A stretch of DNA of 64,000 bases, taken from NCBI RefSeq assembly GCF_000373905.1, contig NZ_KB892705.1, positions 2,847,463-2,911,462 on the forward strand, given 5' to 3'. Below are positions 41,527 to 45,173 of this stretch, piece by piece; position 1 is the first letter of the stretch; each line of letters starts with the position of its first letter. A program made the translations under genes and the position numbers. This DNA comes from Mycobacterium sp. 155. GTDB lineage: Bacteria > Actinomycetota > Actinomycetes > Mycobacteriales > Mycobacteriaceae. The notes beneath the pieces were generated by a model. That model ran no database searches and was not told the origin of the DNA. It saw only the letters and a list, made by a program, of their open reading frames with translations.

Positions 41527-41980
41527 TTCACGAGCCAGCGCAGTGCGGCACCTCCGCTGGAGCATGACCGGACCCGGTCGCAGCCGATACGAGAGAGGCC
41601 GCGGTTTCGATCACTCGGAAGTGCGGCAGCACGTCGCGCCAACTCCGGCCCGCAACCGCCCAAGCCGTCGAAGTCACCGGGCCGCCCCAAGCAGAAGTAG
41701 CCCCCGTTGACCGCTCCCGAGCCGCCGACGACCGACCCCCGGATGATCTCAGCGTGGCGGGGCAGGTGTTCGGTCAAAGCCGACCGGTAGTGGCGCACCA
41801 CCCGGCTCGCGGTGCCGATCGGAAGCCTCAGCCCGTCGCTGATCTGAGCAGCGACGCAAGGATCCGAGGGGGCCGACCCGACCTCCACGACACACACGTG
41901 GCAGTAGGGGTCGGTGGAAAGTCGTTCGGCTCAAGACCGATCCGGCGCTGCTGGCGCCGACGATCAGAACATACTGCGGA
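41527..41980 (-). pseudogene. mftG: Mycofactocin-system GMC oxidoreductase MftG, remnant
   Basis: Minus strand, three pieces in different frames: YVLIVGASSAGSVL (the FAD fold, with the middle Gly of GxGxxG changed to Ser), then VVEVGSAPSDPCVAAQISDG through VVGGSGAVNGGYFC, then after another shift RSWRDVLPHFRVIET. The order matches the N-terminus of MftG. The rest, about 300 or more residues, is missing. It sits directly after mftF, where mftG belongs. Confidence 0.8.
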
Positions 41981-42009
41981 CGTGAGGGGCAAAAATTGCC
42001 GAGGCCGCG

Positions 42010-43422
42010 CTAACTCCGCAGCTGCGGTTTGAGAGCGCCGAGATTGCGCTCGCGGATAACGCCGGCCCACAGGCCCGCCCCGTAGGCGATGTCGTCGAGA
42101 CGCTTGAGCAGGATGTGGGTCAGCAAGCCGACGGGCTTGGTGTCGTCATCGGCATTGCCGCGCCTGGTCGCCCAGTCAACCACCCCGTCGACCACCGCCG
42201 CCAGCAAAACCGCCTGCCGAGCTCGGCGGAACAGCAGCGCGGCGACCAGCGCAATGGGCCAGTAGTGCCGACAGATCGCCGAACACAACTGCAGGGCCGC
42301 GGACCACAGTCCGGTGGCGGTCACCACGGCGACGTCCTTGGGCTCCGTGTCCACCGTGCTGAGAGAACGGGCGATACGACGCCCGGTCATGACGGCAACG
42401 ACCAGCGACGCCAGGTAGCCCACACACGAGCCGATCGCCAGCAACAACCAGACGACCAGACTCCAGCCGGAGATCACCAACGGCGCCGTCTTGCCGGGAT
42501 GCCGCACTGTCAGCGGAGCCGCCGATGTGCCGTAGAAGGCTTTGCGGCTGAGCCACTCTCGAAGATCGGTACGATGATCGTGGGCAACCAGGGCGATGGG
42601 CTCGTACCGCAACCGAGCGCCGGCCTCGACAAAACGCCAGCACAGATCGACATCCTCACCGGACTGCATGGTCTCGTCGAATCCACCGACCGCGACCAGA
42701 GCCGACCGCCGGCAGATGATCGCAGCGCTGGGTACATAGGACACCGTTCCGTAGGGCACCACCGGCGCCTCCCGCACACCCAGGTCGAGCGAGGACCGCA
42801 CAGCCTCGTATCGAGCAACCAGGTTGTCTGTGGTGCACAGCCCGACGATCCTGGGTGCCACGAGCGCGACGGTGGGATCGCAAAAGTGCCCCAGCAAAGC
42901 CTCAAGCCAGCCACGGCGCGGGACGACGTCAGAGTCGAGGAATGCCACGAAGTCTGTGTCGCAGGCTGACAGACCGCTGTTGCGGGCGGCGGCAGGTCCT
43001 TTGCTGTGAGTGTGCCGCAGCACTTGGACGTCGCAGTGCATAGCGGCGAACTCGTCCTCCGACACGGGGACCACAGAGCCGTCGTCGACCACGATGACCC
43101 GCAGCCCGCGCAGCGTTCCGATCAACCGATGCAACCCAGAAACGTTGTCGCGTACTGGAATGACGACAGTGACATCCCGATGCGACGGCCCGCTGGCCGG
43201 CCGCGGGTGGGCTACGGTGGCATCGAGCAGGGTCCGTGCCAGTTGGGCACTGACGGCGTCGCGCACCTCGAGGCGGCCGCCGTTGAGCATGGTTTGCGCG
43301 TTCGGCGCCAGCCGCAGCAGACGCGTCGGCGAGCCGCCGAGCAGAGCCGCCCCCTCACCGAGCACCTTGACTCGACGATCCACCTGCACGGCAAAGCCGT
43401 CGGGCAACCTCGGACCGGTCAT
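42010..43422 (-). CDS. mftF: Mycofactocin biosynthesis glycosyltransferase MftF
   Basis: 470 residues, full length. GT2 core with VTVVIPVRDNVSGLHRLIGT, VIVVDDGS, KGPAAARNSGL and the DxD-type metal site FLDSDVVPR; acceptor region GGFDETMQSGEDVDLCWRF; several hydrophobic segments after residue 320. MftF adds beta-1,4-glucose chains to premycofactocin. The start overlaps the remains of mftE by 4 bp (ATGA). It has no obvious frame damage, although its partners on both sides are broken, so it may be a recent survivor rather than a useful gene here. Confidence 0.9.
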   Translation of the reverse strand: MTGPRLPDGFAVQVDRRVKVLGEGAALLGGSPTRLLRLAPNAQTMLNGGRLEVRDAVSAQLARTLLDATVAHPRPASGPSHRDVTVVIPVRDNVSGLHRLIGTLRGLRVIVVDDGSVVPVSEDEFAAMHCDVQVLRHTHSKGPAAARNSGLSACDTDFVAFLDSDVVPRRGWLEALLGHFCDPTVALVAPRIVGLCTTDNLVARYEAVRSSLDLGVREAPVVPYGTVSYVPSAAIICRRSALVAVGGFDETMQSGEDVDLCWRFVEAGARLRYEPIALVAHDHRTDLREWLSRKAFYGTSAAPLTVRHPGKTAPLVISGWSLVVWLLLAIGSCVGYLASLVVAVMTGRRIARSLSTVDTEPKDVAVVTATGLWSAALQLCSAICRHYWPIALVAALLFRRARQAVLLAAVVDGVVDWATRRGNADDDTKPVGLLTHILLKRLDDIAYGAGLWAGVIRERNLGALKPQLRS

Positions 43423-43922
43423 GTCAGCATCCCGTTCCGGTCAGGCCGCCACCGCCGGATCCGGCCGGTGCACCCGTTTACCATCTCAGCAAAGATACGT
43501 TCCCCCTCGGACCGAAGCAGCCCCGTGGCCGCCGCCAGCACGGTCGCGTTTCCCCGGTGGCCGTTGACGAACACCAGCCGCGACACCCAACTCATGGCTG
43601 ATCTGCCGTACGCCACCAACGAAAGCCGGACGGCTTCTGCGCCGATCGACACCGTGCCGGCGAGGCCTTCGTGCTCGGCTCCGTAGCGGATGGCTGGCGC
43701 CAGGATCCAGTTGGACCCGGCGACTCCGTCGAGGCGCTCCACCGCGGCACCCGCAACTGCCGAGGCGATGCGCGTATCGGTGTCCCGCGGCAAATGCGGT
43801 CCGTGCTGTCCGGTAGAACCGACCGGGATTACCAACATGGATGACACGTTGCGTAGCTGCCTCGATGTCGAGTTCCCGAGCTCGCTGGGGGAAGCCACTT
43901 GCCGATGGTAGGCCGAATTCAC
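43419..43922 (-). pseudogene. mftE: Mycofactocin precursor peptidase MftE, internally deleted
   Basis: Creatininase-family peptidase that removes the core dipeptide from MftA. The frame is open, but about 167 residues remain of roughly 250. It opens VNSAYHRQVASPSELGNSTS; the metal site reads STGQHGPHLPRDTDT, where family members have STEQHGPHLPLDTDT (metal-binding Glu to Gly), and NGHRGN replaces NGHGGN. The sequence then jumps from GLLRSEG straight to ERIFAEMVNG, deleting the segment with the second metal-ligand group (HTET). The C-terminus RIRRWRPDRNGMLT is intact. Unlikely to be active. GTG 43922 is the start by homology. Confidence 0.82.
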
Positions 43923-44075
43923 CTGGAGTGCGCGAATTGTTGACGCATCAACAGCAGTCGATCCCCCGGAACTTTTCCGCCGGCCCCCCAAAGCCATCAC
44001 GTGCGCCTCTCCAGCCACCTTTGTCACGAGGAGGTTACGCGTTACGATCCGCCCCGACCAGTCCCCTGGTCAATT

Positions 44076-44943
44076 GCCAGTGGCCGGTGGCGCTCCCAGC
44101 GTGCGCAGCGCCGAGTCGATCCCGCCCGACAGGATGCTCCACGCCGGCCGCCCGTTGGCCGACCCCACAGCTAGGCCCGCCGATCAAGACGGCGCGGGTG
44201 CCCGGTGCCACGGCTTTGACTACGCCGCTGCCCCGGCGTATACCGCCGTCGAGCAAAACCACGGCCTGATCGCCGAAACCCCAGCTTCGACAGCATGTTT
44301 GGCGTCGTCGACGCGCACCATGCCCTTGAGCAGGACCGGACCGTCCCACTGCTCACGCAGCCAGGAGATGCCCTCTCAGGTCGGTCGTGGGGTGCCCATC
44401 CACCGCCCGTATGGCCTCGAAGAACCGCAGCCCCGGCTCACCACGCCGGCCCTGGTTGGGAACCCGCAGGTCGGGCGGGTTCAGATACTCGCCTAAACTC
44501 CACAACCAGCGTGGCTTGGTGAGCACCTCCGGCGACACCTTGACGATGATCCTGAGGCCCACGGCTCCAACTTCCCGGGCACGCAGCACCCGCTCGGCGA
44601 TCTCGTCGCCGGCAAACGACGGTAGCCCCATGGCGGTACCGCGGGCCGCCGCGGCACGGGCGACGGCAACCTCGCCGGCGGGGCCGACCGTCTGCGCACC
44701 GGTCGGTGAGATGACGATAGGCATCGAAATATCTTGGTCCATAACGGTTGTCGACATCTCGCGCTTTCCGGCGCACCGATGACATGTCGGGCGAAGCCCA
44801 ACTCGGCAAAGGCTTCGACGTTGCCGGAAACTGATACGCCCCTCTCACTGGCCGAGATCAGCGAGGAGTAGACGGCCTTCGGCGAACCTTTCTTCGCTCG
44901 CTGTTGAGCGATGGCAACGGTTTCGAATCAGGTATCGCTGGCC
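44076..44943 (-). pseudogene. mftD: Mycofactocin-associated FMN dehydrogenase MftD, remnant
   Basis: FMN-dependent alpha-hydroxyacid-dehydrogenase family enzyme that oxidises the mycofactocin intermediate. Fragments in order but in several frames: SDT-stop-FETVAIAQQRAKKG (the Trp of DTWFET is now TGA at 44930-44928), SSLISASERGVSVSGNVEAF, then STTVMDQDISMPIVISPTG, PPDLRVPNQGRRGEPG, QWDGPVLLKGMVRVDDAKHA, and VVLLDGGIRRGSGVVKAVAP. The segment with the catalytic His (SNHGG) between the last two is deleted. Clearly a pseudogene. Confidence 0.85.
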
Positions 44944-45173
44944 GGAGGAGTATGAGGTTCGGTCAGCAGCAGCATGGACGCCAATTCGCCGAACGGCCCG
45001 GCACCGGTCAGATCGGCGGTCCAGACCACCGGCTGCTTCCACGACTGTGGCTCTGTAGGCGCCAGACCTATCTGTGCCCACAGCAGATCCCTTGCCTCCT
45101 CAGCGATCTCGCAAGGTACCGCCTGTTCCACCTTGACGAACCCGTCCCGGATGAACGCGTCGACATCGATCAT
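44928..45173 (-). pseudogene. Phytanoyl-CoA dioxygenase-like fragment fused to the mftD relic
   Basis: Starts like a PhyH-family protein: MIDVDAFIRDGFVKVEQAVP, then LLWAQIGLAPTEPQSWKQPV. After about 65 residues (GAGPFGELAS) homology stops and the frame runs into the mftD start, ending at the TGA of DT-stop-FET. The iron-binding residues of PhyH, which lie further along, are absent. This is a deletion scar: mftA, mftB and mftC, expected upstream of mftD, are gone. Confidence 0.6.

Follow-up and report, generated by a model that had tools for sequence, protein, structure and literature searches.

The 64-kb window analyzed here is part of the genome of Mycobacterium sp. 155 (4.61 Mb in two contigs, 100% complete, GTDB genus Mycobacterium), and it carries, beside rpsJ, the remains of a mycofactocin (mft) gene cluster. 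Most of the cluster is broken or gone, and searches of the whole genome indicate that mycofactocin is lost from this organism. One gene, mftF, which encodes a GT2 glycosyltransferase, is intact and under purifying selection. From these sequences we consider it probable that MftF has a selected function independent of mycofactocin, most likely the glucosylation of another acceptor.

The mftF gene and its decaying neighbors

The MftF open reading frame (ORF) scored 611 bits against the NCBIfam model TIGR03965 (cut-off, 280) and matched positions 1-466 of the 467 in the profile. Its neighbors fell below their NCBIfam cut-offs: the MftE ORF reached 160 bits (curated cut-off, 172), two MftD pieces on the minus strand reached 106 bits (44353-44757) and 41 bits (44035-44349) against a cut-off of 471, and an MftG piece (41523-41897, minus strand) reached 93 bits against 387. 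Using the intact mft cluster of M. brisbanense (L063) as the reference for lesions, we found mftD in several pieces over 44179-44942, with several frameshifts and deletions; mftE (43422-44027) has a large internal deletion, and most of mftG has been deleted. In the DNA alignment, a single deletion begins within a phytanoyl-CoA dioxygenase-like gene, extends to the start of mftD, and takes mftR, mftA, mftB, and mftC; the name of the interrupted gene is our own reading of the intact copy and not the result of a family search. Queries with the MftA, MftB, and MftC proteins found nothing credible in the window. Hence, no functional cluster with intact mftA to mftE is present at the locus: mftA to mftC are gone, and MftD and MftE are under their cut-offs. 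An earlier note, written from the letters of the stretch, had described this same pattern of broken mftD, internally deleted mftE, intact mftF, and fragmentary mftG with mftA to mftC not seen, and its description holds.

Might the lesions be sequencing errors, as that note had allowed? This is not likely, because much of the loss consists of large deletions and because an independent assembly, that of the nearest relative Mycobacterium sp. 141 (G063), is eroded with mostly different lesions. The window MftF is 97% identical to that of sp. 141 and 94-95% identical to those of M. aquaticum, M. brisbanense, and two more. In sp. 141, mftF is intact; the 21 kb examined there hold no mftA, mftC, or mftR, and mftB is reduced to a 23-residue scrap. 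Its deletions end at other points than those of the window, and the only lesion that the two share exactly is one mftG indel; therefore, most of the lesions are private. Counts of indels that are not a multiple of three depend on the alignment, but in the mftG stretch with its flanks there were 10 in the window and 9 in sp. 141, compared to 2 and 1 in two intact relatives. The corresponding counts were 7 and 4 versus 1 and 1 for mftD, and 2 (mutually offsetting) and 0 versus 0 and 0 for mftE. The genomes of the window strain and sp. 141 measure 4.5-4.6 Mb, compared to 7.4-8.1 Mb in the nearest relatives by mftF, a strong reduction in the lineage.

We compared the window with sp. 141 by codon position. 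Differences in mftF numbered 11, 7, and 58 at positions 1, 2, and 3 (471 sites each), and an even distribution was rejected (chi-square, p=1.6e-14). Evenness was not rejected for the remnants of mftE (18, 19, and 21 of ~170; p=0.88), mftG (27, 18, and 27 of ~171; p=0.30), or mftD (31, 29, and 39 of ~111; p=0.44). At positions 1 and 2 combined, mftF was distinct from both mftE (Fisher, p=1e-10) and mftG (p=3e-14). Its divergence at these positions was 0.019, like that of three intact neighbors (0.015-0.028), whereas the mftE and mftG remnants had diverged by 0.11-0.14 and mftD by ~0.30 over all positions; fourfold sites of working genes stood at 0.08-0.14.

A purpose-written codon model was run on eight taxa for mftF and on five taxa for mftF, mftE, mftG, and mftD. 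In the eight-taxon run, the dN/dS ratio (omega) of mftF was 0.061 in the window and sp. 141 tips and 0.029 elsewhere; a single ratio was worse by 2.4 log-likelihood (lnL) units, and omega=1 was worse by 60 (59-60 over the two runs). In the five-taxon run, the mftF tip omega was 0.062, with an interval of roughly 0.035-0.11 (lnL drop under 2) that does not overlap those of mftE (tip omega, 0.66), mftG (0.42), and mftD (0.40). Under this model, an mftF released together with its neighbors would show an omega several times higher. With an omega of 0.062, no indels, and no stops, mftF does not have the character of a pseudogene.

The stop codon of mftE overlaps the start codon of mftF (NTGA) in all 62 of the loci that have a start codon there. 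The mftE remnant frame is open into this overlap in all three genomes that have remnants (202 aa in the window, 249 aa in sp. 141, 615 codons in M. tilburgii). Selection on the mftE remnant at the protein level is ruled out: its changes are flat over the codon positions, and its tip omega is not different from 1. Because the changes are flat, coupling would be the likely reason for the open frames, and the data are no more than suggestive of a dead mftE frame that stays open through translational coupling to mftF. A point against coupling is that, judged from stop codons alone, open mftE frames would arise without selection with a probability of 0.27-0.56 per genome. The mftF start codon (43420-43422) is ATG in the window and sp. 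141 and GTG in M. aquaticum, M. brisbanense, and strain 852013-50091.

The features of the locus are collected in Table 1. Beyond mftG, M. brisbanense and relatives have a further gene before the esterase gene, which we take to encode a cytochrome P450; it is missing in the window (~41413-41421) and in sp. 141. A promoter scan and a terminator scan gave one match each, no more than expected by chance. At 45963-46042, a 24-base tandem repeat of 3.3 copies adds an SSPRPAAT-type linker in a glyoxalase-domain gene; sp. 141 shows a similar repeat, and M. brisbanense does not.

Table 1. Features of the mycofactocin locus, with positions numbered within the window
Feature	Position	Strand	Basis or remark
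rpsJ (30S ribosomal protein S10)	38386-38691	-	Landmark
DUF4442 protein	39165-39650	+	PF14539; flank, intact
Carboxylesterase	39681-41351	-	PF00135; flank, intact; directly adjoins mftF in M. brumae
mftG remnant, N-terminal piece and 3' scraps	41421-41990	-	Protein comparison with M. brisbanense; profile score
mftF, intact 470-aa GT2 glycosyltransferase	42010-43422	-	TIGR03965, motifs, purifying selection
mftE remnant, internally deleted but open over 202 aa	43419-44027	-	Stop overlaps mftF start (ATGA)
mftD remnant, pieces with deletions and frameshifts	44035-44942	-	Profile and protein comparison
Phytanoyl-CoA dioxygenase-like gene (presumed), 5' stub	44976-45185	-	Edge of the deletion that removed mftR, mftA, mftB, and mftC

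Mycofactocin genes across genomes

Genome-wide, an MftA profile found nothing in the window genome (G000), sp. 141, M. brumae (G175), or M. tilburgii (G089). The first run, on the window genome, had no positive control match; the same profile found MftA in 6/6 intact relatives. Among the matches listed, MftC was over its cut-off in 380 of 396 genomes of the genus, and none of the same four was among these; the tally is off by one from the 17 genomes with a best E value above 1e-70. The best match to the MftC model in the window genome had an E value of 4e-7. Searches for MftB, MftD, MftE, and MftG covered the window and the fetched loci, not whole genomes.

The enzymes tied to the cofactor are gone from the window genome as well. 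Mycofactocin-coupled short-chain dehydrogenases/reductases (TIGR03971) were over the cut-off in 6/6 intact relatives and in 0/4 of the genomes above, and the methyltransferase MftM was over its cut-off in 5/6 and 0/4, respectively. N,N-dimethyl-4-nitrosoaniline (NDMA)-type alcohol dehydrogenases (TIGR03989) were over the cut-off in 6/6 intact relatives; the window genome, sp. 141, and M. tilburgii had none. Thus, of the three published groups of mycofactocin-dependent dehydrogenases, the third being iron dependent (PF00465), the two searched for have no member over the cut-off in the window genome. We conclude from these profile searches that mycofactocin is lost in the window genome and not relocated. 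Loss had been one suggestion of the earlier note and is upheld; the other, a working cluster elsewhere in the 4.61 Mb, is rejected on the genome-wide absence of MftA and of any MftC over the cut-off. A published rule drawn from 1450 genomes states that MftF, MftC, and MftB occur together or not at all. The window genome departs from it, with an MftF but no MftC over the cut-off and no MftA.

Six genomes without MftC could be judged, and mftF is intact in four of them: the window genome, sp. 141, M. brumae, and M. tilburgii, which represent three lineages. By our tally, mftF is the sole surviving mft gene seen at the locus in two of the three. The remaining two are 3.3-Mb genomes that we take, by size alone, to be leprosy bacilli (G075 and G115), in which mftF is full of stops. 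We left out two genomes as assembly gaps (G377 and G395, with no full MftC match and mftF near a contig end), three that are incomplete and undecided (G294, G258, and G279), and six that are 58-89% complete and have no full-length MftF match either (G182, G303, G317, G368, G288, and G126).

In M. brumae, mftF is open and lies between the esterase gene, ~83 bp away, and what we take to be a reductase gene; the 18 kb examined hold none of mftA to mftE or mftG besides mftF. Omega on this mftF branch was 0.099 versus 0.058, a difference that is not significant on a saturated branch. Among 29 other chosen genomes, the nearest relative of M. brumae had a best esterase identity of 59%, too distant for a branch test.

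M. tilburgii (L120 and L159) has an intact mftF, only the C terminus of mftC, a frameshifted mftD, and an internally deleted mftE. Its unique changes at codon positions 1, 2, and 3 were 16, 2, and 42 of 406, 439, and 242 in mftF and 15, 18, and 18 of 125, 132, and 104 in mftE. The same counts were 21, 5, and 29 of 345, 362, and 187 in mftD and 20, 14, and 41 of 370, 377, and 218 in mftG. Omega for mftF was 0.037 versus 0.039.

Across 298 genomes of the order, MftF passed in 146 and MftC in 151. By our reading, four had MftF over the cut-off without MftC: the window genome, G585, and two incomplete genomes (G552, 75%; G556, 63%). G585, an 8.5-Mb genome from a different genus in the family, has no MftC over the cut-off and encodes two MftF-family proteins (L169 and L170) that pass the equivalog cut-off. 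No mft genes were found in the 16 kb around each protein, and a P450-like gene adjoins one of them. We did not count these as the same phenomenon, since their identity to the window MftF is 49% and 42% and they may be a different enzyme.

The MftF protein and possible reasons for its retention

The window MftF keeps all three GT2 motifs examined (VVDDGS at 111, FLDSDV at 161, and GEDVDLCWR at 255). We defined a conserved set as the 217 columns in which 92 other MftF sequences show conservation of 98% or more, after dropping 2 of 98 rows (L031, which is the window again, and the undecided L143). Of these 217 residues, the window and sp. 141 proteins have none changed, that of M. tilburgii has 1, and that of M. 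brumae has 23; leave-one-out counts among the 92 had a median of 0 and a maximum of 7. All four orphan proteins retain the three motifs; the single departure is a conservative substitution within the third motif of M. brumae. Structure prediction (pLDDT 75, pTM 0.77) gives a GT-A domain followed by helices. Its first PDB match was the cellulose synthase BcsA, and GalNAc-transferases, a mannosyltransferase, and hyaluronan synthase were among the others, with TM-scores of ~0.25-0.5.

In M. brumae, 7 of the 23 changed residues fall within 283-302, a stretch between the GED motif and the transmembrane helix, which has been placed at 324-346 (PMC7491314). This cluster of substitutions may reflect a changed acceptor site.

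In M. smegmatis, MftF is responsible for beta-1,4-glucosylation of (pre)mycofactocin (PMC7491314). The explanation that we favor is that the lineage, having lost mycofactocin, kept mftF because MftF does a second job. MftF would then be a still-working, membrane-associated inverting GT2 enzyme, transferring glucose, probably in the beta-1,4 linkage made on mycofactocin, to an acceptor other than premycofactocin. This putative acceptor would probably be a lipid-linked molecule or one of the envelope. No family-conserved residue has changed in the window and sp. 141 proteins, which makes it probable that mycofactocin producers do the second job as well and that it did not arise newly in this lineage. 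A broader version is tentative, and we doubt it more than we credit it: that the second client is a general lipid- or envelope-linked acceptor, beta-glucosylated in all mycobacteria with mftF, and mycofactocin one client among others. The earlier note had raised service in another glycosylation as one possibility. Of its readings of mftF, this is the one still standing, with a putative acceptor.

Several observations weigh against retention for a second job. The mftF tips are slightly relaxed in the five-taxon run, at 0.062 versus a background of 0.025 (lnL -3217.59 versus -3220.03), so that the dN/dS comparison with orthologues that the earlier note had proposed returned a constrained, slightly relaxed gene. 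The mftG and mftD tips, at ~0.4, are above background yet below 1. Stem omegas are low for all four genes; therefore, release of the cluster dates from about the time that the window strain and sp. 141 separated, or later, and not from long before. M. tilburgii has an intact mftG as constrained as in its relatives (omega, 0.106 versus 0.113), and its mftD still looks codon constrained in spite of the frameshift. Because mftG is also intact and constrained there, this species does not single out mftF: a second function would account for it, and so may a loss of fairly recent date. M. brumae has 23 of 217 conserved residues changed on a long, saturated branch, with no close relative at hand, and it keeps one TIGR03989 dehydrogenase over the cut-off (580 bits), which counts against a complete loss of mycofactocin-linked enzymes in that species. 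The constrained mftG of M. tilburgii, in a genome without MftA or MftC, is contrary to the published view that MftG strictly needs mycofactocin (PMC11778925); recent loss would also explain it.

Perhaps the cluster was lost recently, and mftF is just the one remaining gene that mutation has not reached so far? The earlier note had called this recent luck. The low stem omegas, by which the loss is not ancient in the window strain and sp. 141, favor it, as does M. tilburgii, with mftF and mftG intact and mftD still codon biased. However, the other genes have diverged several-fold further between the window and sp. 141 than has mftF at positions 1 and 2, and the mftF tip interval is separate from theirs. 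This codon-level evidence rejects luck for these two genomes, and M. brumae, whose mftF has stayed open at a locus now empty of other mft genes, makes it less likely; overall, we regard it as improbable. We consider it rather unlikely that the protein is kept for a noncatalytic role, such as that of a membrane scaffold. In M. smegmatis, loss of MftF also stops formation of the aglycone, a result in which the authors saw a possible part for MftF in a complex or in recruitment (PMC7491314), but here the known partners MftD and MftE are broken and the motifs for sugar transfer are kept in all four orphan proteins.

Alternatively, the organism might make or take up a mycofactocin-like molecule by means of other genes, and MftF would decorate it as usual. 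The dehydrogenase of M. brumae and the intact mftG of M. tilburgii are in keeping with this, and MftE can be replaced by an unidentified peptidase in M. smegmatis (PMC7491314). Against it stand the absence of MftA and of MftC over the cut-off and the lack of TIGR03971, TIGR03989, and MftM over the cut-off in the window genome, within searches that did not take MftG or the iron-dependent dehydrogenases genome-wide; we judge it very unlikely. That the DNA is kept for reasons in cis, such as a promoter for the downstream esterase gene or its expression, seems to us extremely unlikely. In the window, the esterase gene is downstream of mftF in the same orientation, and in M. brumae it is close to mftF, but the constraint follows the codon structure and spans the whole protein.

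Known systems and meaning

The protein is like the characterized MftF (TIGR03965; Rv0696, MSMEG_1426) in sequence, length, GT2 motifs, and location beside the esterase gene, the DUF4442 gene, and rpsJ. It differs in that its known substrate could not be made here by the known route. M. leprae, which lacks the mycofactocin system (PMC3023750), is similar in having lost the cluster from a reduced genome; it differs if the presumed leprosy bacilli represent it, since their mftF is broken. The partial cluster of Herbiconiux sp. L3-i23 keeps mftF without mftB, mftC, and mftE, but mftD, mftG, and a possible mftA remain, and the available part of that paper contains no selection test on mftF (PMC11778925). 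Processive beta-glycan GT2 enzymes such as BcsA and hyaluronan synthase share the GT-A domain followed by helices; at 12-16% identity, with the low TM-scores given above and a large root-mean-square deviation, the likeness is one of fold only. Among open-licence papers searched by title and the start of the abstract, none reported mftF retained after loss of the pathway. The main text of the M. brumae genome paper does not contain the words mycofactocin or mft (PMC9850167), and the available parts of PMC6529628, PMC8406134, and PMC11162802 have nothing on a retained mftF.

The mycofactocin genes have been defined by strict co-occurrence, and the lineages described here break that rule, with mftF under selection in at least one of them. 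They suggest that mycobacteria make a glycoconjugate not yet recognized and that the phenotypes of mftF mutants may have two meanings. If a general second client is real, some of what has been attributed to mycofactocin in the mftF phenotype would belong to that other glycoconjugate. M. brumae, a nonpathogenic species in which mftF is the sole mft gene found at the locus, would be a clean system for finding the second substrate.

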